Shown piece by piece: positions 4,410-40,548 of a DNA stretch of 64,000 nt. The DNA comes from Alphaproteobacteria bacterium. GTDB lineage: Bacteria; Pseudomonadota; Alphaproteobacteria; Elsterales; Elsteraceae. The number at the start of each line of letters is the position of its first letter. Position 1 is the stretch's first letter. The stretch is taken from assembly GCA_004292755.1 (NCBI GenBank), contig RDXE01000030.1:1-64000 (forward strand). The letters run 5' to 3'. The notes beneath the pieces are model-generated. The model saw only the letters and a list, made by a program, of their open reading frames with translations. It was not told the DNA's origin and did not search any database. The position numbers and the translations under genes are program-made.

Positions 4410-5098
4410 TGGCTGCGCTGCAAGCCGTTGGCCTGACCCGTTTGATTGGCGAGGGTGACGGCGTCACGCTGGTGCGCGATATCTCGCTCAATTTCACTGC
4501 GGGTGAGTTTGTGTGTATCACTGGCCCATCAGGTTCGGGCAAATCCTCATTGCTGTATCTGCTGGGTTTGCTGGACCAACCCACTGCTGGGGATGTGCTG
4601 GTGGATGGCCGCTCCACCCAGCGCCTGAGCCGCGATGCCTTGGCTGACCTCCGGCTCGCGAAGCTGGGCTTTGTGTTTCAGTTCCACTTCCTGCTGCCGG
4701 AGTTCAGCGCGTTTGACAATGTCGTGCTGCCGATCCGGCGGCTCGGGCGCCTGCGCGGGCGCGCGGCTGACCGCCGGGCCGAAGCACTGTTGGACCGGCT
4801 GGGCCTCGCCGCGTCGATGCACAAGCGTCCGGGGCAGATGTCCGGCGGGCAGCGTCAACGGGTGGCGATTGCCCGCGCTCTCGCCAATGATCCGCCCGTA
4901 GTGCTGGCGGACGAGCCTACCGGCAATCTCGATACCCACAACGCCACCGAGGTGTTTCGCCTGTTTCAGGAGATCGCAGCCGAAGGCCGGTTGGTGGTGG
5001 CGGTCACCCACGATCTTGATCTGGCGCGCGAGGCGTCGCGCCGGGTGCATCTGGTGGATGGCGCGCTGGCGCCAGTGCCTGGCGTTGCGCTCGATTGA
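4409..5098 (+). CDS. ABC exporter ATP-binding protein (MacB/LolD-like)
   Basis: 229 residues from the ATG at 4409, which shares its first base with the permease stop; longer upstream starts would lie inside the permease gene. All nucleotide-binding motifs are present: Walker A GPSGSGKSS, Q-loop VFQFHFLLPEF, signature MSGGQRQR, Walker B VVLADEPTGNLD and H-loop VTHD. Sequence and length fit the LolD/MacB ATPase group that powers extrusion from the inner membrane. The 3' end overlaps the convergent DMT transporter gene by 95 bp. Confidence 0.94.
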   Translation: MAALQAVGLTRLIGEGDGVTLVRDISLNFTAGEFVCITGPSGSGKSSLLYLLGLLDQPTAGDVLVDGRSTQRLSRDALADLRLAKLGFVFQFHFLLPEFSAFDNVVLPIRRLGRLRGRAADRRAEALLDRLGLAASMHKRPGQMSGGQRQRVAIARALANDPPVVLADEPTGNLDTHNATEVFRLFQEIAAEGRLVVAVTHDLDLAREASRRVHLVDGALAPVPGVALD

Positions 5099-5951
5099 CC
5101 AGGGCAAGACCCGCGAAGATCGACACCACTGCCAGCACCATCAAGGCGCTGGGCCGCTCTCCAAACAACAAGAAGCCCCACGCCATCCCCATGAGCCCGA
5201 CCACATAGCCGGTTTGGGAGAAGAACACGCCCCCTGCAATGCGGATGATCTCGAAGAACAGCATATACGCGACAGAGGAGATGACGATCTGTCCCAGGAT
5301 CGCCCAATCCGCGGCGCTGACGGGAAGGCTCAACACAGGGCGGTGGAACGCACCCAGCGCTAACACCAGCGGCGTCATCAACAGGGCAGATGCCATCAAC
5401 ATGCCACCGGCAAAGGCGAGGCTGTCGCCAGGTGGGCGCGTGCGGGCGGAGGAGAACACATTCGTCGCGGCGTAGCCGAGTGGTCCCAACAGCGCGATCG
5501 CGATCAACCAAGCCTCGCCACCGATGCCACCGCGATCCGCAGCAATGATCGCCGCCCCCAGCAAGCCCAGCAGCAGCCCGCCCAGCTTCCACGGGTGAAA
5601 CCGCTCCAGCTGAATGCTGAGGGACAGGCCATAGGTAATCAGCGGCACCAGCGTGCTCATCAACGCGACAGTGCCTGCGGGCAGGCGGTCAATGACTAGA
5701 AACAGGCAGGCGTTGGGGAATGCGATGCCCAAGGCGCCCGTGACGCCATAGTGCAGGACATGGGCAGAGGTTAGCCGGGGCAGGGTGCCGCGCGCGGCGC
5801 AGATGGCCAGCACCAGCACGCCAGCCCCAGCCGACTGCCACCAGACATAGCCGAGAGGCGGTACCCCCTGGGTGATCGCAATCTTGGCCAAGCTGAACGC
5901 CAAGCCCCAGAGGCCACCCAGCAGCAACAGATACACAGTCGGACGCAGCAT
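5004..5951 (-). CDS. DMT superfamily (EamA) transporter
   Basis: About 315 residues with roughly ten hydrophobic helices arranged as two EamA repeats (VYLLLLGGLWGLAFSLAKIA and, in the second half, WLIAIALLGPLGYAATNVFS). The substrate of this export/import family is not predictable from sequence. Two starts are possible. The ATG at 5951 is just before the first helix and follows AGGA at 7 nt. The GTG at 6023 overlaps the upstream stop as GTGA and would add 24 residues. The C-terminal codons overlap the convergent ABC ATPase gene by 95 bp, with a hydrophilic Arg/Pro-rich tail likely shaped by that overlap. Confidence 0.87.
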   Translation of the reverse strand: MLRPTVYLLLLGGLWGLAFSLAKIAITQGVPPLGYVWWQSAGAGVLVLAICAARGTLPRLTSAHVLHYGVTGALGIAFPNACLFLVIDRLPAGTVALMSTLVPLITYGLSLSIQLERFHPWKLGGLLLGLLGAAIIAADRGGIGGEAWLIAIALLGPLGYAATNVFSSARTRPPGDSLAFAGGMLMASALLMTPLVLALGAFHRPVLSLPVSAADWAILGQIVISSVAYMLFFEIIRIAGGVFFSQTGYVVGLMGMAWGFLLFGERPSALMVLAVVSIFAGLALVNRAQRQALAPARHPPDAPGATPRAPDQDRG

Positions 5952-6019
5952 GCGGCCATCCTGGCGCTGTGCGCGGCTGGTTACCAGTGATGCTGCGGCA
6001 GACCGGGGTCTGGCGAGGA

Positions 6020-6388
6020 TCACAGGCCAAGACGCACCGCCATCGGCCAGGCGTTGAAGATCGCCATGGACAGGATGGTCAGGCTGAGGCCCAGCACCAG
6101 ATGGTCCGCGCGCTCAGCCACTTGGGCGTAGTCGGGGGTGGGCTGGCGGGCGAGGGTGGGCGCTGGGGCGTCGCGCGGCTCTGTCTCAGGTGCCTTGAGG
6201 TCATAGACCCGGCGGCGTCCCGCTTGCAGGCGCGCCACCAGTCGCAGCTTGACCAGCGGGTTCACCCGGAAGATGGCACGGGCGCGCAGCATGGCAGTTT
6301 CCAGCCGCTGCGCTTCTGCGACGACGTGCCAACCCTGCTCGCCGAAGTGTTCGATTGTATAGGGCACAGGACGGTGTTTGGTCTTCAT
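6020..6388 (-). CDS. Hypothetical protein with C-terminal membrane anchor
   Basis: About 122 residues from the ATG at 6388 (MKTKHRPVPYTIEHFGEQGW); an in-frame start 17 codons upstream is possible. The N-terminal half is basic and rich in helix-forming residues (QRLETAMLRARAIFRVNPLV). A Pro/Thr-rich linker then leads to one hydrophobic helix near the end (HLVLGLSLTILSMAIFNAWP). This suggests a cytoplasmic domain tethered by a tail anchor. It probably lies in a transcription unit with the DMT transporter, whose alternative GTG start overlaps its stop. No family was recognised. Confidence 0.6.
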   Translation of the reverse strand: MKTKHRPVPYTIEHFGEQGWHVVAEAQRLETAMLRARAIFRVNPLVKLRLVARLQAGRRRVYDLKAPETEPRDAPAPTLARQPTPDYAQVAERADHLVLGLSLTILSMAIFNAWPMAVRLGL

Positions 6389-6518
6389 GGTCGCCTCCAC
6401 CCACCGATGCGGTTGGGCATGAGGGAAGAGTAGACCCATCCTGTCTTCGTGGATATTGACTGGACAGTATAGACTAAGCAGGTGAGACGGCCATCACACC
6501 TTGCCCCTATTCAAACAT

Positions 6519-6540
6519 ACTTGGTTGACACTTGGTTGAC
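6519..6540. repeat. Perfect tandem repeat of an 11-mer
   Basis: ACTTGGTTGAC occurs twice head-to-tail (6519-6529 and 6530-6540) in the 168-bp gap between the end of ugpC (6557) and the start of the small membrane protein gene (6388). One helical turn per unit is compatible with a cooperative operator for the 6388/5951 unit, but it could be chance. A TATACT-like -10 (minus strand, 6466-6471) lies between it and the gene. Confidence 0.5.
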
Positions 6541-6556
6541 GAAAGACTGTGGCCGT

Positions 6557-7630
6557 TTAGGTCTTCGACGGCAGCCGAATTCCTGTGTCGGTATCAAATA
6601 AATGCTGATGACCGGACAGTGCCGTTAACCGGATTTTATCGCCAATTCCAACAACACTGCTGCCCGGAAGCCGGGCCGTTAAGGTTTGACCCGATTGGGT
6701 TTGTCCATAAATCAAGGTGTCAGCCCCCAGCGCCTCCACCAAATCCACCGACACCTGGATCGGGCCATCGCCGGTCGCCACCAGATGCTCTGGACGGATG
6801 CCGAAGATCACAGGGCGGCCAGCACTCTCCTGCCAGATCGGATCAAGAGGAAGGCGCTCAACCCCAAAGCTTATGTCAACGCCGTCATCGGACACCGTGG
6901 CTGAAACGAGGTTCATGGCAGGTGAACCAATGAACCCAGCCACGAAGGTGGTAGATGGTTTGGTATAGAGGTCGAGCGGGCTGCCGATCTGGTCAGCGCG
7001 ACCGGCATTCATGCAGATCAGCCGGTCTGCCAGCGTCATCGCCTCAACTTGGTCATGGGTGACGTAGAGCGACGTGATGCCAAGCTGGCGCTGCAGCTTT
7101 TTGATTTCCACCCGCATCTGCACGCGCAGTTTCGCATCCAGATTCGACAGTGGTTCATCGAACAGGAACGCCTTCGGCTCCCGCACAATCGCGCGGCCCA
7201 TGGCGACGCGCTGGCGTTGACCACCGGACAATTGCCGCGGCTTGCGATCCAGGTATGGACCCAGCTGCAAGATGTCGGCCGCGCGTGCCACCCGCTGGCT
7301 TATCTGATCGGTGGGAAGGCCACGAATCTTCAAGCCATAGGCCATGTTCTCGCGCACCGTCATATGCGGGTAGAGCGCATAGTTCTGGAACACCATGGCG
7401 ATGTCGCGATCCTTCGGCTCCAGCGCGGAGACATCACGGCCATCGATCAGGATTTGACCGTTGGACTGGGTTTCCAAGCCAGCGACGATGCGCAACAGCG
7501 TGGACTTGCCACAGCCCGATGGCCCGACGATCACGACAAACGCACCATCGGGGATATCCGTCGAGATACCATGCAGCACCTGGGTGTCGCCAAAGCGCTT
7601 TTCGACAGACTGAAGGGTAACCTGAGCCAT
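6557..7630 (-). CDS. ugpC: sn-glycerol-3-phosphate ABC transporter ATP-binding protein UgpC
   Basis: 357 residues of the MalK/UgpC class. The nucleotide-binding domain has Walker A GPSGCGKST, Q-loop VFQNYALYPHMTV, signature LSGGQRQR, Walker B FLFDEPLSNLDAKLR and H-loop VTHDQVEAMTLADR. A C-terminal TOBE/OB regulatory domain of about 120 residues follows (FGIRPEHL). It energises glycerophosphodiester/G3P uptake through UgpAE. It is the last gene of ugpBAEC, starting 2 bp after ugpE ends. The context, with all four components in order, makes the Ugp assignment stronger than the ATPase alone would. Confidence 0.93.
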   Translation of the reverse strand: MAQVTLQSVEKRFGDTQVLHGISTDIPDGAFVVIVGPSGCGKSTLLRIVAGLETQSNGQILIDGRDVSALEPKDRDIAMVFQNYALYPHMTVRENMAYGLKIRGLPTDQISQRVARAADILQLGPYLDRKPRQLSGGQRQRVAMGRAIVREPKAFLFDEPLSNLDAKLRVQMRVEIKKLQRQLGITSLYVTHDQVEAMTLADRLICMNAGRADQIGSPLDLYTKPSTTFVAGFIGSPAMNLVSATVSDDGVDISFGVERLPLDPIWQESAGRPVIFGIRPEHLVATGDGPIQVSVDLVEALGADTLIYGQTQSGQTLTARLPGSSVVGIGDKIRLTALSGHQHLFDTDTGIRLPSKT

Positions 7631-7632
7631 GA

Positions 7633-8475
7633 TTACTTTTCCTGATCGACAAGGCCTTTAACGAACCAACGCTGCATCAGCACCACTACTGCCACAGGGG
7701 GCAGCAGGGCGAGCAGTGCGGTCGCCATGACCAGATTCCAGTCAGTCGGTGCGTCGGCACCGCCCATCATCTTCTTGATACCCAGCACCACAGTGTCCAT
7801 CTCTGCCGCGGGGGCAATCAACAGCGGCCAGAGATACTGGTTCCAGCCGTAGATGAACAAGATAACGAACAGTGCCGCCATGTTGGTGGCCGACAGGGGC
7901 ACCACGGTGTCTTTGAAAAAGCGCATCGGCCCTGCGCCATCAATCTTGGCCGCTTCCACCAGTTCATCGGGGATGGTCAAAAAGAATTGGCGGAACAGCA
8001 GGGTTGCCGTGGCGGAGGCGATCAACGGCACCGTCAGACCAGCGAAGGTGTTCAGCATGCCAAGGTCCACCACGACTTGGTAGGTTGGCACGATGCGCAC
8101 CTCCACGGGCAGCATCAAGGTGATGAAGATTAACCAGAAGCAAATCATGCGGCCAGGAAACTGAAAAAACACCACAGCATAGGCAGACAGCAGGGAAATG
8201 GCGATCTTTCCTAAGGTGATGGCGAGTGCCATGACCAGGCTGTTCCACATCATCACGCCAACTGGCGTGGTGCCGACTTTGCTGGTGCCACCATCGAAGA
8301 GAACCCGGGCAAAGTTATCCAACCCATAGGGACCGGGCAGCACCGGCACCGGCGCCTGAGCTAGATCCGGCGGCATCCAGGTGGTGGCGATGAACGCCTG
8401 ATAGATGGGAAAGGCTGTGATCGCGATGCCCAGCCAGATCACCAGATGGGGCAGCCACTCGCTTCGCCGCTGCAT
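7633..8475 (-). CDS. ugpE: G3P ABC transporter permease UgpE
   Basis: 280 residues with six predicted membrane helices (the first GIAITAFPIYQAFIA). The EAA loop that docks the ATPase is EAAKIDGAGPMRFFKDTVVP. The periplasmic loop after helix 1 is long, as in MalG/UgpE. The start ATG shares one base with the ugpA stop, implying coupled translation. It pairs with UgpA to form the heterodimeric channel for sn-glycerol-3-phosphate or its diesters. Confidence 0.93.
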   Translation of the reverse strand: MQRRSEWLPHLVIWLGIAITAFPIYQAFIATTWMPPDLAQAPVPVLPGPYGLDNFARVLFDGGTSKVGTTPVGVMMWNSLVMALAITLGKIAISLLSAYAVVFFQFPGRMICFWLIFITLMLPVEVRIVPTYQVVVDLGMLNTFAGLTVPLIASATATLLFRQFFLTIPDELVEAAKIDGAGPMRFFKDTVVPLSATNMAALFVILFIYGWNQYLWPLLIAPAAEMDTVVLGIKKMMGGADAPTDWNLVMATALLALLPPVAVVVLMQRWFVKGLVDQEK

Positions 8476-9365
8476 CAGTAATGCACCTTCCGCTCGATGT
8501 ACCGGAACTGAATGGCGGTCAGTGCAATCACAATCGCCATCAAGATCACGCTCTGGGCTGCCGACGTGCCGAACTGGGCCGAGCGGAAGCCATCATTGTA
8601 GACTTTGTAGACCAGGATTTCGGTTGCCTTGGCCGGACCGCCGGAGGTGACCGCATCGATCACGCCAAAGGTGTCAAAGAAGGCATAGACAACATTGACC
8701 ACGATCAAAAAGAAGGTGGTCGGTGACAGCAACGGGAAGATGATATCCCAGAACTGGCGCTGCCGGGATGCCCCATCGATCGCCGCTGCCTCAATCACCG
8801 ATCGGGGGATTGATTGGAGGCCGGCCAGGAAAAACAGAAAGTTATAGCTGATTTGTTTCCACGCGCTGGCGATCACCACCAGGATCATCGCGTGATCACC
8901 ATTCAGGATAGGGTTCCATGCCACTCCCAACTGGCGCAACACCCAGGCTGCGGACCCAACCGTGGGATTGAACAAGAACAGCCACAGCACGCCTGCAACA
9001 GCCGGGGCGATGGCGTAGGGCAGCACGATCAAGGTTTGATACAGGCCCTTGCCACGCATCACGCGATCCACCTGAACCGCCAGATACAGCGAGGGAACCA
9101 ACGCCAGTGCCGTCACACCCACGGAAAACACAGCCGTGGTCCACAGGGAGGACACATAGCCAGGGTCGCTCAGGACTGTGCGGAAATTCTCCAACCCAAC
9201 ATATTGGTAGGATGTACCAAACATATCCTGCTCAAGGACTGAGAAATACAGCGCTTGGCCCGCAGGCCAGAAGAAGAACACGCCCGTAATCGCCAGCTGT
9301 GGCGCGATCAGCAGGATCGGCAGCAATGTGCCTTTGAATATGACTTTGCGTTGCATCCGCCGCAC
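8475..9365 (-). CDS. ugpA: G3P ABC transporter permease UgpA
   Basis: 296 residues with six membrane helices ([20 protein letters not shown] first) and the conserved [13 protein letters not shown] motif after it, as in UgpA/MalF-type subunits. The EAA loop reads [20 protein letters not shown]. The start used is GTG at 9365; an ATG three codons in (9356) is an alternative. A gap of 133 bp separates it from ugpB and holds a strong hairpin. The 3' end overlaps ugpE by one base. Confidence 0.93.
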
Positions 9366-9408
9366 TCAATCCAGGGGGAGCATCCAGCCATTGTGCCAGA
9401 CGCCAAGA

Positions 9409-9442
9409 CCCGCTGCGCCGGGGGTAAGGCAGGCGCAGCGGG
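9409..9442 (-). other. Intercistronic hairpin between ugpB and ugpA
   Basis: CCCGCTGCGCC (9409-9419) and GGCGCAGCGGG (9432-9442) form a perfect 11-bp stem with a 12-nt loop. There is no T-run on the minus strand. A position between a receptor gene and its permease genes is typical of elements that stabilise the receptor mRNA or partially terminate, giving excess binding protein. That role is inferred. Confidence 0.6.
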
Positions 9443-9498
9443 CTCGAAGCAGCTGGGGTGGCATGACCACCCCAGCGACGAGGGGGGTACTGGGCGAG

Positions 9499-10830
9499 TT
9501 ACTGGGCGGTGCGTTCAAACTGGCGCAGGGCGGCATTGCCACGCTGCACGGCGTTGTCCAGCGCTTGCTTCGCGGTGATCTGGCCCTGCAGCGCGCGCTC
9601 CACTTCCTCGTGGTAGAAGTCGCGGATTTCCGTCCACCGACCGAAGCGGTAGCCCATCGAGTTGCTGGTCGGCGTGCCGCGGTTCAGCTGCTCAAACGGC
9701 ACTTCGGTGCCGGGATTGCGCTGGAAGTAGCCAGCTTCGCGCATGCGGTTGAAGCTTGCTTCCGTTGGCGGCACGAAGCCGGTCGGCTCGGCGAACTTCG
9801 CCAGCACTTCCGGGGTGCGCAGGTAGTCCAGGAACTGCGCGACGCCACGAATCTCGGCATCAGTGCGATTGGGGGCGTTGAACACCCACAAAGACGCGCC
9901 GCCGACGATGCCGTTCTTCGGCTGGGCGATTACATCCGGCCAATAGGGCAGGGGAGCAGTGCCCCAGTTAAACTTCGCATCACGCGCAATGGTGCCGCGG
10001 CCACCCGACGACTGCAGGAAGATACCGCACTCGCCCGAGATGAACTTCGGCTCAGCGTTGTTGGAGCGACCGCCGTAGTCGAAGGTCTTATCCTTCTGCA
10101 GGTCGACCAGCGTCTGCACCATCTTTTCACGGGCGGCGTCGTTGAAGTTCAACACGGCACCCAGGCCACCGCGGCCATTGTCCATCGTGGAGAGCGGCAG
10201 GTCATGCAGAGCGGAGAACTGCTCCAGCATGATCCAGGCGATCCAGGTGGAGGTGAAACCGCAGGCCATGCCGGACGCGCGCAGCTTGCGCGCGGCATCG
10301 ATGGTTTCCGGCCAAGTGCGGGGCGGCTTCTCCGGGTCCAGACCGGCGCGCGCAAACGCATCCTTATTGTAGAACATGACCGCTGTGGAGACGTTCAGCG
10401 GCTGGGACAGCAAGGTGCCATCCGGCGTGGAGTAATAGCCGAAGGCCGGGCCGATGAAGGCGCGCGGGTCGAACTGCAAACCAGCGCGGCGATAGACTTC
10501 AGAGACCGGGATAACGGCATTACGGGCCGACATCATGTCGCCGGTACCGGCATCGAACATTTGCATGATGTGCGGCGGGTTGCCGGCACGGAAGGCGGCA
10601 ATGGCCGCAGCCCGCTGCTCAGGATACTGGCCGCGGAACGACACATTAACCCGATATTCAGGATTACGAGCGTTGTAGTCATTTCCGATCTGGATCAGCA
10701 GCTCCTGGGCAACGCCCGTGAGCCCGATCCACATCTCGATGGTCCGTGGCGCTTGCTGGGCCAGCGCGGGCATGGCGACAGTCGCAGCGACGGCTGCTGC
10801 CGCGCCAGCGACGAAGGAACGGCGACGCAT
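9499..10830 (-). CDS. ugpB: G3P ABC transporter substrate-binding protein UgpB
   Basis: 443 residues with an N-terminal twin-arginine-like signal (MRRRSFVAGAAAAVAATVAM, cleavage near ALAQ). A type 1 extracellular solute-binding domain follows (IEMWIGLTGVAQELL, then PRTWPETIDAARKLRASGMA). Segments such as FTSTWIAWIMLEQFSALH and GVVGGASLWVF-like INGIVGGASLWVFN match UgpB rather than maltose-binding proteins. It delivers G3P or glycerophosphodiesters to UgpAE. As first gene of the operon it is preceded by a hairpin-forming leader and a Pho-box-like element, which fits phosphate-starvation control. Confidence 0.92.
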   Translation of the reverse strand: MRRRSFVAGAAAAVAATVAMPALAQQAPRTIEMWIGLTGVAQELLIQIGNDYNARNPEYRVNVSFRGQYPEQRAAAIAAFRAGNPPHIMQMFDAGTGDMMSARNAVIPVSEVYRRAGLQFDPRAFIGPAFGYYSTPDGTLLSQPLNVSTAVMFYNKDAFARAGLDPEKPPRTWPETIDAARKLRASGMACGFTSTWIAWIMLEQFSALHDLPLSTMDNGRGGLGAVLNFNDAAREKMVQTLVDLQKDKTFDYGGRSNNAEPKFISGECGIFLQSSGGRGTIARDAKFNWGTAPLPYWPDVIAQPKNGIVGGASLWVFNAPNRTDAEIRGVAQFLDYLRTPEVLAKFAEPTGFVPPTEASFNRMREAGYFQRNPGTEVPFEQLNRGTPTSNSMGYRFGRWTEIRDFYHEEVERALQGQITAKQALDNAVQRGNAALRQFERTAQ

Positions 10831-10855
10831 GAGTTGGTCTCCCCAAACATATTCG

Positions 10856-10885
10856 GTGACCGGGCTTCTAGCGGCCCGGTGTCAC
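10856..10885 (-). promoter_or_regulatory. Hairpin in the ugpB leader
   Basis: GTGACCGGGC (10856-10865) can pair with GCCCGGTGTCAC (10874-10885), with a 2-nt bulge and an 8-nt loop. It lies 26-55 nt before the ugpB start codon, so it would be in the untranslated leader if transcription starts just downstream of the Pho-box-like element. A role in mRNA stability or translation is possible but not shown. Confidence 0.45.
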
Positions 10886-10891
10886 TCTCCT

Positions 10892-10920
10892 GTGACAGAA
10901 ATATTGATAAACGATGACAG
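10892..10920 (-). promoter_or_regulatory. Putative Pho box upstream of ugpBAEC
   Basis: On the minus strand CTGTCAT (10914-10920) and CTGTCAC (10892-10898) lie exactly 22 bp apart, two helical turns. A degenerate middle copy TTATCAA lies between them. CTGTCA(T/C) repeats on an 11-bp period are the PhoB-binding pattern, and ugp operons are classical Pho regulon members. The element ends about 61 bp before the ugpB start, a suitable distance for an activator-overlapped -35 region. The assignment rests on motif plus context. Confidence 0.65.
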
Positions 10921-11016
10921 CCGGGTCGTGGTAGGGGGAAACACAGCCAGATGCAAACTGATGGCAGACAGCCTCAGACCGCTGGCTTCCCCGTGAACGC
11001 TGCTCCGCCTACTCGG

Positions 11017-14000
11017 TCATGAAGGGTCTGGGTCCGCGATGGGTGGCGGCGTCGCCACGCGGCGATTGCCGGTAACGGCGCGGACGACAAGGTAGAAGAT
11101 CGGCGTCAGGAACAGGCCCAGGATGGTCACGCCGATCATGCCTGAAAACACAGCCGTGCCGAGGGCCTGGCGCATCTCAGCACCAGGGCCGGTGGCGATC
11201 ACCAGCGGCACGACGCCCAGGATGAAGGCCAGCGCCGTCATCAGAATCGGCCGCAGCCGCAGGCGGCAGGCTTCCACCACTGAATCGAGGGCGGACTTGC
11301 CCTCATGCTCCAACTGGCGGGCGAACTCCACAATCAGGATGGCGTTCTTGGCGGCAAGGCCGACCAGCACCACAAGGCCAATCTGTACCAGGATGTTGTT
11401 GTCCATGCCGCGCAGCATCACCCCCAACAACGCGGAGAACACGGCCGTGGGCACAATCAACACAATCGCGAAAGGTAGCCCCCAGCTTTCATACTGGGCC
11501 GCTAGCGCCAGGAACACAAACACCACCGCCAGAATGAAGATGTAGATAGCGGTGTTGCCGGTGCGTTTTTCTTCAAACGCCAGCTCCGTCCAATCGAAGC
11601 CAACACCCTGCGGCAGTGTTTCAGCTGCAATCTGCTCCATCAACTGGATTGCCTGCGCTGAGGAGATGCCCGCGGCGTTGGCGTTCAGCGGCACCGAGGC
11701 AAACATGTTGTACCGCTGCACCAAGTCCGGCCCGGAAACATCGCGAATGTCCACCAGCGTACCCAGTGGCACCAGCGCTCCCGTGGCGGAGCGGACCTTC
11801 AATTGCGCGATGTCGGCTTGATCCAGGCGGTAGCGTTGGTCGGCCTGCACGCGAACCTGCCAAACCCGTCCGAAGGCGTTGAAGTCATTGACATAAGCGG
11901 TGCCGAGATTGACCGAGAGGGTTTCAAAGATGTTCTGGATCGGCACGTTCAGGATTTGGGCGCGGCTGCGGTCAATCTCCAGATACACCTGTGGGCTGGA
12001 GGCGGTGAAGGTGGTGAACACACCGGCCAGCCCTGGGGTCTGGTTTGCCCGCATCATCACACTGCGTGCCACCTCCAGCAGCTTGCCAACATCATTGCCG
12101 GTGCGGTCCTGCAACTGCATCTTGATGCCGCCCACGCTGCCAATGCCGGGCACGGCAGGGGGCGGGACTGCAATGATGAAGGCTTCAGGAATGCTTTGCA
12201 GGCGCCCAAACAAGGCGCCGACGATGGCGCGGGCGGGCAGCCCCTGTGCGATTCGCTCATTGAACGGCTTAAAGGCCGTGAAGATCACGCCCGCGTTGGA
12301 CGCGTTGGTGAACGTCACGCCGGAGAAGCCCGCAAACGCCACGGCATCGCGCACACCGGGGGTCTGGCGAATGATGTCGGTCGCCTTCTGGATCACAGCG
12401 TCGGTGCGCTCCAGCGAGGCACCATCGGGCAGCTGGATCGCAACGATCGCATAACCGCGGTCGAGCGTCGGGATGAACCCACCGGGCACCCGCCCCATGA
12501 TGTCCACGGTCAAGAACAGCAAGCCGCCATAGATCGCCAGCATCACCAGCTTGTGACCCGCCAGTGACCGAACCGAGCGGGCGTAACGGTCCGCACCGGC
12601 ATCAAAGGACCGGTTGAACACCCGCGCAAAGCCGCGCGCAAGCAAGGCAAGCGGGTTGCGGGTCGGGTGATGATGGTGGGGCTTCAACAGGATTGCGCAC
12701 AGGGCAGGTGACAAGGTGAGGGAGTTGAACGCCGACAGTGCCGTCGCAACGGCAATGGTCAGCGCAAACTGCTTGTAGAACTGGCCCGAGATACCAGGAA
12801 TAAACGCCGTCGGCACGAACACGGCACACAGCACGACGGAGATTGCGATCACCGCGGTGCCAACTTCATCCAAGGTTTTGCGTGCGGCATCGCGGGGACT
12901 GAGGCCCAAGGCGATGTTGCGCTCCACATTCTCCACCACCACGATGGCATCATCGACGACGATGCCAATCGCTAGCACGAGGCCAAACAGCGTCAGCACA
13001 TTCAGGCTGAAGCCAAAGCCGTACATCACCGCGAAGGTGCCGATCAGCGAGACCGGGATCGCTAGAATTGGGATGATCGCCGCGCGCCAGGATTGCAGGA
13101 ACACCAGCACCACCAGGGCGACCAGCACAATCGCTTCAGCCAGGGTAACATAGACGGCGCTGACAGACTCGGCGATGAATTCCGTCGGATTATACACCAC
13201 CTGATAGTCAATGCCCGGTGGAAAATCGCGCTTCAATATTTCCATCATCGCCAACACTTCAGAGGCGGTGTTCAGCGCGTTGGAGCCAGGCTTCTGGAAC
13301 ACGGCCAGCGCCACGGCAGCCTTGCCGTTCAGCAGCGAGTTCGTGACGTAGTCACGTGCCCCCAGCTCCACCCGCGCCACATCGCGCACCCGCACCAAGC
13401 GGCCATCGGGTGTGGCGCGGACGATCACATCGCGGAACTGGTTCAAGTCAACAAACCGGCCCTGCGTGGTCACCACCACCTGGAACGCAGTCCCGGACTC
13501 GGCTGGCGGGGTGCCCAGGGCACCGCCCGAGACCTGGACATTCTGCTGTTGCAGCGAGCGCACGACATCGCCGCCGGTCAAGCCATAGCTGGCGAGCTTG
13601 TCGGAATCGAGCCAGACGCGCATCGCGTATTCCCGCGCGCCAAACACCAGGAGGTTGCCGATCCCCTCCAGCCGTAACAACTGATCGCGCACCCGCAACA
13701 GCGCATAGTTGGAGATGTATAGTTGATCAAAGCTGTCGTCGGGCGACAGCATATGCACCACCATCATCAAGTTCGGCGATGACTTCTGGGTGGTCACACC
13801 CAGGCGGCGAACCTCTTCAGGCAGACGCGGTTGAGCAATTGCCACTCGATTTTGGACGAGAACCTGGGCTTTGTCCAAATCGGTGCCCAGCTTGAAAGTG
13901 ATGGTCAGCTGCATTTGACCATCGGACGTGGCGTAGGACGACATATACAGCATGTCCTCCACACCATTGATTTCAGCCTCCAGGGGAGTAGCGACCGTCG

Positions 14001-38022: not shown

Positions 38023-38745
38023 TTAGCGTTGCCCGCTGGGGGGCGACTTGGCGCGTGATTTGGCGATGGTGATCAAGTTCTGCCGCAGATGCCGGACAAT
38101 ACCGAGCAGACTGGCCTCGTCGACGGCATGCAGCCATTCATTTGGCTGGTGGTTGGCAAGGAAGCTGCCCGCAGCGCCACCGAACTCTGTGATGATGAAC
38201 GCATGCTTCTGACGCTCCGTTGCCAGCTTTATTTCGTCCCAGACACCCGGCGGCGGGCTCTCGCGCAGCTGGCCGCCCAGCGCAATCAGGGCATCGCAGT
38301 CTTCCGCCAGGGTTTGGCGCAGCGCATGAAGCGCCTGAGACTTGCTCTCCGGCGTACCCGTCAGGGTCGAGGCGTTGCGGGCGCCGTGGCACCGAACAAA
38401 CATGCCAGCGCGGTTACCCGCCTCCTGTCCCGGATCGTCGCCGCCATTGACCCCAGGCACGACATACCACCGGATGGGTGGAGTGTCGGCCATCGCGAGC
38501 GAGCGTGCATAGGCGCTGGCAAGATCGATCAGTTGCTCGGTGTAGCCGAACTTGCGCAAGTCCCCAGCATAGGCGACGGTCGCGCCCGCCACGAACAGCA
38601 TGCGGCAGATTTCCACAAATGCTTGATCAAGCTCTGCTTTGGTTCGACCGAAGGCCGCGAGATTCGGGCTGTCGGATATAGCAACCTGGACCAGCATATT
38701 TGCCAGCGGCCGCTGATCAGCCTGGGTGCTTGCAGGTTCGGACAT
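38023..38745 (-). CDS. SLOG/STALD-type nucleotide-binding protein of a TIR-SLOG module
   Basis: 240 residues forming one Rossmann-like domain. LVQVAISDSPNLAAFG is the first strand/loop, then VAGATVAYAGDLRKFGYTEQ (GDLR at 61-64). DALIALGGQL (151-160), GVWDEIKLA (167-175) and FIITEFGGAAG (183-193) follow. The order GDLR, L-GG, E-I-x-x-A and x-FGG-A matches SLOG-superfamily domains of the STALD group, named for association with Sir2 and TIR, which bind NAD-derived nucleotides in ThsA of Thoeris. No Sir2, nuclease or membrane domain is fused. It starts 4 bp after the TIR gene. Function as sensor or regulator is inferred. Confidence 0.78.
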   Translation of the reverse strand: MSEPASTQADQRPLANMLVQVAISDSPNLAAFGRTKAELDQAFVEICRMLFVAGATVAYAGDLRKFGYTEQLIDLASAYARSLAMADTPPIRWYVVPGVNGGDDPGQEAGNRAGMFVRCHGARNASTLTGTPESKSQALHALRQTLAEDCDALIALGGQLRESPPPGVWDEIKLATERQKHAFIITEFGGAAGSFLANHQPNEWLHAVDEASLLGIVRHLRQNLITIAKSRAKSPPSGQR

Positions 38746-38749
38746 GGGT

Positions 38750-39853
38750 TCAGTCCAATTCCAGAAGTGAGACAAATCTAACACCGGGCGCGAAGGTCTG
38801 CAGCACTGCCGCTGCGTCCTCATCCAACGCTGGCCCAGGGTAGAGCCAGGTGCTGCCGACTGTGCAGCGCAAGCTCTTGAAATCATCCGTCAGCAAGCTG
38901 ATCGGATCTGGCGTGCGCACAAACACACAGCCGCCGACATCTGCCTGGGGAGGATACTGCCCACCCCCTTTTGTGGTTGCGGTCCAGACAAACGTGAATA
39001 GCGCCTGTTTCAAGGCCTCCAGCAGCACCTGCTTCAGCCCGCTTGTCTCCGGTGGCAGAGACAGCCGCACGGTGGGCAGGGCACCAGCATGGGGGGCACG
39101 CTGCGGCTCACCTTTTTGTTGGCAGAGTACAAGCAGAATAGGGCGGTCTGTCACCTTGGCTAGCATCACCTCGTGCCGACACCAGTACCGGCTGGAAAAT
39201 TGATCGGTTTCGAAGGCTATGATGATGCTTCCGACCACTGCGTCGCGAATAGACTCACGCCAATCCTCACCGAGGCTGATTGTCTCCTCATCGAAAAATG
39301 CGTCGAGCCCTCTGTTAACAGTATCTTTACTGAACTTTTCTGCCAATTTCCGTCCATCATACTTTGCGTGGCTAAGAAATAATTTCGGTTTGGTAGAGTC
39401 CTGGAACAGCAGGAGCTGGAGCTTCTTCAAGATTGCCTGGATCAGCTGGATATGACAGTCAACACGGTCAGTGTCTGATTTGGGCATACATAAGGATTGA
39501 AGCTCACCTTTCAGTCTTGGGCTGTGTGGCTCGCACACTTGAACCAGCATGACCCATGTCGAATTGTCTTCTGCGGCACGAGTGAGCGTGGCCAAGACTG
39601 ACCCCGCCGGTGGTGGTATCAGTTCGGGCTGTAGCGGGAGAACAACAAACACGTGAAGTGTGCACGGGTACCGAGACAGCAGCTTGCTGAGGGCCTCGCC
39701 GGGGGCGTCAGGCTGCCAATGACGGGTGTCAATCAGGACAGACAAACCAGCTGTCTCAGCAGACTGGCATAGCTCGGCCGCAAGGGCGGAGACAAATTTC
39801 AGTGATTGATCACTGCCACTGTGGACAAAGTGAATTGCGAGGCGCGGATCCAT
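38750..39853 (-). CDS. TIR-domain protein with an extra N-terminal TIR-like segment
   Basis: 367 residues. A canonical TIR domain occupies about 156-265: KPKLFLSHAKYDGRKLAEKF (box 1), FFDEETISLGEDWRESIRDA (BB loop and box 2), and SSRYWCRHEVMLAK, whose E228 aligns with the catalytic Glu of TIR NADases. Residues 1-150 also look TIR-like (LAIHFVHSGSDQSLKFVSAL, then LSVLIDTRHWQPDAPGEALS and LHVFVVLPL) but lack the WCxxE motif. The C-terminal part has TWLYPGPALDEDAAAVL. GC is about 48% over 39181-39480, well below neighbours. It is first in a two-gene operon with the SLOG protein. A predicted NAD-consuming or signalling enzyme in defence. Confidence 0.85.
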   Translation of the reverse strand: MDPRLAIHFVHSGSDQSLKFVSALAAELCQSAETAGLSVLIDTRHWQPDAPGEALSKLLSRYPCTLHVFVVLPLQPELIPPPAGSVLATLTRAAEDNSTWVMLVQVCEPHSPRLKGELQSLCMPKSDTDRVDCHIQLIQAILKKLQLLLFQDSTKPKLFLSHAKYDGRKLAEKFSKDTVNRGLDAFFDEETISLGEDWRESIRDAVVGSIIIAFETDQFSSRYWCRHEVMLAKVTDRPILLVLCQQKGEPQRAPHAGALPTVRLSLPPETSGLKQVLLEALKQALFTFVWTATTKGGGQYPPQADVGGCVFVRTPDPISLLTDDFKSLRCTVGSTWLYPGPALDEDAAAVLQTFAPGVRFVSLLELD

Positions 39854-40548
39854 GCGATCGAATACTCCCTACCGGTCTGACGATTGTTCACATGCGGGGG
39901 TGCGGAGTTACGGATTCAGCAGGAACACTCTTTTCTGTTTAAGCTGATAGGTTCAACCACGCGGTCGCCTGAAGCTGCCGATAATTCACGATCGACGTAG
40001 TGTCACGTCCCTGTACCATCTGCATACAGCAATCTAATAAAAATGGTGACCACAAGTTTTTCACCCAAGTTGCTTAGTGTCATCGATCGTCAGGCCGTTG
40101 CCTGTAGCTCTCTCGTCGGCATTGTTCCCAACAAAGGTTCGCAGAGCCAGCGGCATTATCCAAACCTTTGATAGGGTACATCCACTCGTCAGTACAAGGA
40201 AAGGAGTATGCGACAACCTGCGGTTCGCTGATCCCCACGCCTCGGATACGGCTGCACCCGGTCGGGCGGTGATAGATCATGCCTGCCGAGAGTTTGGTGA
40301 TGCTGCCTCAAGCAACCCGGGCAGGGCGAGGGATCGGCCAGCGCGCCATATCCCTATCCCTCGCAGGTCAGAGCGCGGACTGCGGCGATCCGAAGGTTGG
40401 CCCGCAGCCCGGCACGGGCAGCGTTTGGACGTCTGCGCTAATATGTTTTACCTAGTTCATCTCAGAGTATTGCGTAGGCGCGTCACTCGGGCATTATTGT
40501 TTTGCGTAGAGGTCGCCAGGATTGGCGCGGAAACCTTTGAGGATGTCC
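39854..40548. other. Gene-free region between the TIR gene and the response regulator
   Basis: 695 bp without a credible gene; frames here have poor composition and no family similarity. The left part (39901-40080) is AT-rich, down to about 38% GC in 40021-40080, and should hold the promoter of the TIR-SLOG operon. The TIR start has GGGAG 11 nt upstream. The middle is GC-rich with one 9-bp inverted repeat. The right end (from about 40443) is the regulator upstream segment that is duplicated, in decayed form, at 37757-38020. No integrase, tRNA or terminal inverted repeat was seen. Confidence 0.5.
40326..40364. other. Inverted repeat in the gap right of the TIR-SLOG module
   Basis: GCGAGGGAT (40326-40334) and ATCCCTCGC (40356-40364) are perfect inverted copies, 21 bp apart. 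It could be a hairpin of a non-coding transcript or a protein-binding site; there is no T-run for termination. Confidence 0.4.

Follow-up and report, generated by a model that had tools for sequence, protein, structure and literature searches.

A TIR–SLOG cluster2 gene pair points to a little-studied Thoeris-like system in an alphaproteobacterium and in many other phyla

Two adjacent genes on the reverse strand of the window, as we call the whole stretch of 64,000 nucleotides of alphaproteobacterial DNA that was analysed, encode a TIR protein and a small free-standing SLOG protein (Table 1). The TGA stop codon of the TIR reading frame ends at 38750, and 4 bp (ACCC) separate it from the SLOG start codon, an ATG at 38745. 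Homologues of both reading frames are spread over many phyla, which marks them as real genes. An earlier note, made from the letters of this DNA, had described a TIR protein with intact box motifs and a glutamate at position 228, followed after 4 bp by a 240-residue protein with the SLOG motifs GDLR, LGG, E-I-x-x-A and FGG-A, and all of these were found.

Table 1. Features of the TIR–SLOG locus in the window.
Feature	Position	Strand	Basis and reading
TIR protein P0002, 367 aa	38750..39853	-	TIR_2 match, AlphaFold model and family profile; partner, probable NADase effector
N-terminal alpha/beta domain of TIR protein, residues 1–150	39404..39853	-	Kept in relatives; family-specific
TIR domain proper, about residues 155–265	39059..39391	-	Pfam TIR_2 match at 159–265
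Glu228 codon, catalytic-type TIR glutamate	39170..39172	-	Family alignment and AbTIR alignment
C-terminal domain of TIR protein, residues 266–367, family motif YPxP (338–341)	38753..39058	-	Family alignment
Free-standing SLOG cluster2 protein P0001, 240 aa	38023..38745	-	PF18163 and fold match; probable nucleotide receptor
Arg143 codon, aligned with BcThsA R371 (signal contact)	38317..38319	-	Profile alignment to ThsA
Glu171 codon, aligned with BcThsA E403 (signal contact)	38233..38235	-	Profile alignment to ThsA
Local G+C trough, 53–59% against about 63–65% in the flanks	38700..40500		Composition profile; spans TIR gene and its upstream region

The neighbours of the pair are genes for a sensor kinase, M16 peptidases, a response regulator, MarR, an exonuclease and an ABC transporter, and neither a ThsB-like gene nor any other defence gene adjoins it. 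Scans for promoters and terminators turned up nothing above the level of chance. The trough in G+C content suggests that the locus was acquired horizontally; flank synteny of the pair was not established across the nine genomes of the family. The only ThsB_TIR match in the genome of the window (G000) lies on another contig, beside a likely membrane protein of 291 aa. At this locus (L147, 6833–8115 on contig C26), the gene of a 136-aa ThsB-type TIR protein overlaps that of the 291-aa protein, which has apparent membrane segments and is possibly an S-4TM-type pore effector, and the two genes are probably a second TIR-based system of this genome.

The TIR domain of the larger protein is recognized by Pfam PF13676 (TIR_2; 47.9 bits, cut-off 28) and carries the box motifs FLSHAK (159–164), FFDE (186–189) and SSRYWCRHE (220–228). 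Glutamate occupies position 228 in 45 of the 46 rows of the family alignment, W224 is kept in all 46, and a phmmer alignment places E228 on the glutamate of AbTIR, the catalytic residue of which is E208 (PMC10022894). A 12-member family profile matches AbTIR, SARM1, Cat1 and other TIR structures, and the AlphaFold model (pLDDT 83, with an alignment of relatives as input) matches the TIR domain of SARM1 with a TM(target) of 0.72–0.78. Full-length fold matches to sugar isomerases were treated as artefacts of the tandem Rossmann-like domains because of their poor fit (TM about 0.2, rmsd about 18). With the TIR NADases AbTIR, SARM1 and Cat1 the window protein shares the TIR fold and a catalytic-type glutamate in a WxxxE context, and it is probable from its sequence that it cleaves NAD+. 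Unlike in these enzymes, its TIR domain sits between family-specific N- and C-terminal domains and the protein is coupled to a SLOG protein. Strands and helices alternate in the modelled N-terminal domain, and a weak match to a TIR-like profile (hhalign probability 30%, E 5e-4) hints faintly at a degenerate TIR domain. The C-terminal domain has no Pfam match, while the prolines of its YPxP motif are kept in 43 (P339) and 44 (P341) of the 46 rows.

The smaller protein belongs to Pfam PF18163 (LD_cluster2, “SLOG cluster2”; 91.4 bits, E 9.2e-26, gathering cut-off 25.3), with its motifs at residues 61–64 (GDLR), 156–158 (LGG), 171–175 (EIKLA) and 188–192 (FGGAA). The SLOG part of the SLOG/STALD assignment made in the earlier note is thereby upheld, whereas membership of the STALD branch (PF18185) falls away, the score of 14.3 bits lying below the gathering cut-off of 24. 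The predicted structure (mean pLDDT 87, with an alignment of relatives as input) has a SLOG-type Rossmannoid fold. No relative of the protein was found among solved structures by sequence search; only fold comparison detected them, with TRPM N-terminal domains and the SLOG domain of BcThsA as top PDB matches and LOG enzymes also among them. The match to the 3'cADPR-bound SLOG domain of BcThsA (7uxs_A) has an E value of 1.8e-4 and a TM(target) of 0.60.

In ThsA, 3'cADPR is reported to be coordinated by R371, K388 and E403, and alteration of these residues renders the protein constitutively active in planta, indicating that SLOG both restrains and activates its ThsA effector (PMC10022894). When the SLOG family profile is aligned with four ThsA proteins (BcThsA numbering), two of these three signal-binding residues, R371 and E403, have counterparts in the window protein, R143 and E171, which are invariant in all 58 rows of the SLOG family alignment. 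At the K388 position 47 of the 58 relatives have R or K; the window copy has Q (Q159). This copy is divergent within the family (at most about 36% identity to relatives), and its ligand binding may be altered or reduced, since it also deviates at near-invariant positions (T186-E187 for GG, S163 for G and H181 for P). Judged by sequence and model, the SLOG cluster2 protein is a probable nucleotide receptor.

A contig scan with the window SLOG as single query gave no match because the protein is a divergent member of its family; a profile of closer relatives gave 73 SLOG loci. Phage records contained no relative and viral contigs one. The comparison covers 86 SLOG cluster2 loci, drawn from plasmids, from whole genomes and, in one case, from a viral contig; duplicate records (two) and the two type III arrays L039 and L040 were left out. 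A TIR gene lies directly upstream in 69 of them, 13 are fused to a TIR domain, 3 lie at a contig edge and 1 (L099) is without TIR. The same type of TIR is therefore directly upstream of or fused to SLOG in 82 of 83 informative loci, a pairing that is far beyond chance and agrees with the single functional unit proposed earlier. Every paired or fused locus has the order TIR then SLOG, and the 13 single-chain fusions have the domain order of SIR2 and SLOG in ThsA. Conversely, in a sample of 367 genomes of the same class, full-family TIR matches and SLOG cluster2 occur in exactly the same five; a sixth TIR match (G288) is an N-terminal fragment lying where a contig ends. The distance matrices of the two proteins agree (Mantel r 0.89; best of 999 permutations 0.27), so that TIR and SLOG diverge in step, as expected of a unit that is inherited together. 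The earlier note had staked its proposal on paired homologues and on the SLOG profile and fold; the pairing, the PF18163 match and the Rossmannoid fold were all found.

The family is patchily distributed, occurring in 7 of 398 genomes, and the record titles of its loci include Pseudomonadota, Cyanobacteriota, Actinomycetota, Planctomycetota and Verrucomicrobia as well as Dehalococcoidia, Saprospiraceae, Oscillospiraceae and a Nitrosopumilaceae MAG. The pair is carried on plasmids and, in E. coli, where 16 of 5426 complete genomes have it, on an integrated conjugative element. Some copies depart from the usual layout. In two loci (L069 and L078, both at 7980–9380) the fusion is reversed, SLOG cluster2 being followed by a TIR-like domain at the C terminus; receptor and signal maker may be joined in these proteins. 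On a Rhizobium bangladeshense plasmid (L019, 3491–5986) an IS3 element interrupts the TIR gene of the pair, and in a Rhodospirillaceae MAG (L032, 7015–7669) the SLOG gene is split into two frames behind an intact TIR gene.

The neighbourhoods of relatives add an element absent from the earlier note, which had called for such a survey. Besides the conserved pairing, an extra TIR gene lies within 6.5 kb in 49 of the 59 loci that have at least 4.5 kb of flank on either side; the remaining ten are solo pairs, as is the window copy. Many of the extra genes match ThsB_TIR (PF08937) and the ThsB models of PADLOC. Genes of the Nmad2, MazG_C and HMUDK_hel types form a second block that has its own ThsB_TIR gene and resembles a modified-nucleotide pathway; of the 86 loci 30 carry Nmad2, 21 MazG_C, 15 a protein annotated in one record as uracil-DNA glycosylase and 13 HMUDK_hel. 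Pair and block lie within 10916–20232 of L162, and similar arrangements are present in L029, L030, L048–L050, L054, L056, L058 and L101; the block combines in varying ways ThsB_TIR with Nmad2, MazG_C, the protein annotated as uracil-DNA glycosylase (L019), HMUDK_hel, dNMP kinase and thymidylate synthase, modification-type genes that recur in about a third of loci. In E. coli the order is an unknown protein, two ThsB_TIR genes, TIR and SLOG (10916–14819 in L162) and then a restriction endonuclease or ATPase gene; further on, Nmad2, ThsB_TIR, HMUDK_hel, a dNMP kinase-like protein and thymidylate synthase follow on the opposite strand, and beyond this second block lie ArdC, MobC and conjugation genes. 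The closest relative within the family (L031, 739–12172) has its TIR–SLOG pair flanked by three large TIR proteins (943–989 aa), and the two whose sequences were read (4596–7427 and 9203–12172) combine an NTPase-like region with TPR-type repeats. About 26 of the 86 loci have, close to the pair, an undescribed domain of about 170–180 aa (for instance L069, 5672–6214; L036, 6680–7201; L109, 1318–4011), either alone, where it has no Pfam match, or inside a larger protein with a patatin match.

Compared with Thoeris type I, the pair has the same domain order, with a SLOG domain beside a domain that is NAD-cleaving (here by prediction), the equivalents of R371 and E403 are kept, the SLOG fold matches the 3'cADPR-bound domain, and ThsB-type TIR genes adjoin most relatives. 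It differs in that the candidate effector is a TIR domain where ThsA has SIR2, that its SLOG is of cluster2 and not STALD, that most loci of the family have two separate genes and that the window copy is without a ThsB neighbour. Neither window protein attains a Thoeris type I cut-off or has a SIR2 domain, and the genome has no STALD match at E<=0.001.

Thoeris type III as named in NCBIfam is a parallel arrangement which the earlier note did not have. In it the gene of ThcB4 (TIR, about 380 aa) is directly followed by that of a free-standing SLOG cluster3 protein, ThcA (about 190 aa), the two being adjacent or overlapping in 6 of 6 loci seen. The likeness to our family lies in the succession of a TIR gene of about 370–430 aa and a small free-standing SLOG gene, in SLOG profiles that align over most of their length (hhalign probability 93%) and in the other TIR genes nearby in the arrays of genomes G424 and G745. 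However, ThcA belongs to SLOG cluster3 (PF18180), and ThcB4 is of another TIR family, alignable with the window protein within the TIR domain only. The type III models do not accept the pair: the window TIR protein reaches 38.4 bits against the 220 needed for ThcB4 (NF058526), and the ThcA model (NF058525; 110 bits) matches neither the window SLOG at E<=1 nor anything in its genome. The two arrays themselves (L039, 5751–11947, in G424; L040, 2977–9679, in G745) contain ThcB4, ThcA, four further TIR genes and a fusion of SLOG cluster2 with a patatin phospholipase. This fusion looks like a lipid-attacking effector of the arrays' signalling network, and it implies that cluster2 can sit on an effector as the sensing part. 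PMC9503650 ascribes the general class of TIR–SLOG antiviral systems to earlier studies, among them the predictions of Burroughs et al. (2015); within Pfam, the window SLOG falls into PF18163. The literature collection that was searched contained nothing on Thoeris type III or on PF18163.

From these comparisons TIR and SLOG are probably an NAD-centred defence unit, and we infer direct binding between the two proteins, NADase activity, the nature of the ligand and a role in defence. We give roughly even chances to the pair being a split receptor and effector, ThsA-like with the effector part exchanged. The ligand of SLOG cluster2 would be a small nucleotide, most likely a derivative of ADP-ribose that a TIR enzyme produces from NAD+. 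Once bound to it, SLOG would switch on its partner TIR protein as SLOG does for SIR2 in ThsA; the activated TIR would then cleave NAD+ and stop the infected cell. That the TIR is likely what SLOG controls follows from the 13 single-chain fusions, which also qualify the earlier statement that SLOG has no fused effector: it is correct for the window copy but not for these 13 loci, where SLOG is joined to the same type of TIR, and the likely effector is the adjacent TIR protein. A separate signal maker in most loci is suggested by the ThsB-type neighbours, which would probably sense the phage and make the signal. In the window, which has no adjacent ThsB, the direct target of the trigger might be SLOG or the TIR protein's N-terminal domain; alternatively, the signal might come from elsewhere.

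The same fusions, and the lack of a recurring third gene beside solo pairs, weigh against a scheme in which the TIR protein is the signal maker and SLOG, as a receptor of its own, relays the signal to a third, unlinked effector. Such a scheme is imaginable for ThcB4 and ThcA, whose constant adjacency under the name of Thoeris type III lends it some weight, as does the ability of SLOG cluster2 to be fused to an effector (patatin); we regard it as rather unlikely. Somewhat harder to credit is that SLOG is a LOG-type N-glycosidase that destroys or reshapes the TIR product and so restrains a toxic TIR, in the manner of a brake or an antitoxin. Catalytic LOG enzymes also use the Arg and Glu of the SLOG pocket, and the invariant R143 and E171 would suit LOG-type catalysis as well, so that these residues, as read from the alignment, could fit a receptor or an enzyme. 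LOG structures are among the fold matches, but the closest immune-related match is the signal-binding SLOG of ThsA. The LOG enzyme motif PGGxGTxxE is not present as such either, the window having PPGVWDE and the family PGIxEE. For SLOG domains in general, a sensing role and the cleavage of N-glycosidic bonds have both been proposed by Aravind and colleagues (PMC9503650).

The recurring second block raises a further idea, which is very unlikely: a separate Thoeris-like type in which SLOG cluster2 gates a TIR effector, the signal would be a base-modified nucleotide rather than plain cyclic ADP-ribose, the modification-type genes would make or clear it and the solo pair of the window would be a reduced form of the system. 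Least probable of all is a metabolic or signalling module with no part in defence. The ordinary neighbourhood of the window pair would suit such a module, yet the patchy distribution, the low-G+C patch at the locus, the carriage of family members on plasmids and an integrated conjugative element, the ThsB-type genes beside relatives and the restriction endonuclease or ATPase gene of the E. coli locus all speak against it.

The split receptor and effector remains our preferred reading, and because TIR and SLOG are almost always adjacent or fused across many phyla, the pair points to a little-studied Thoeris-like antiviral system, the TIR part of which is probably the weapon. No PADLOC model matches the window SLOG protein, and both proteins lie below the NCBIfam cut-offs. 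In the E. coli records examined the SLOG cluster2 genes are annotated as hypothetical proteins, and they match none of the defence models searched, yet the pair is spread over many phyla. The idea of a split receptor and effector is directly testable with the single-chain fusions and the E. coli copies. If it is true, receptors of the Thoeris type would be modular, with one sensing fold driving SIR2, patatin or TIR effectors.
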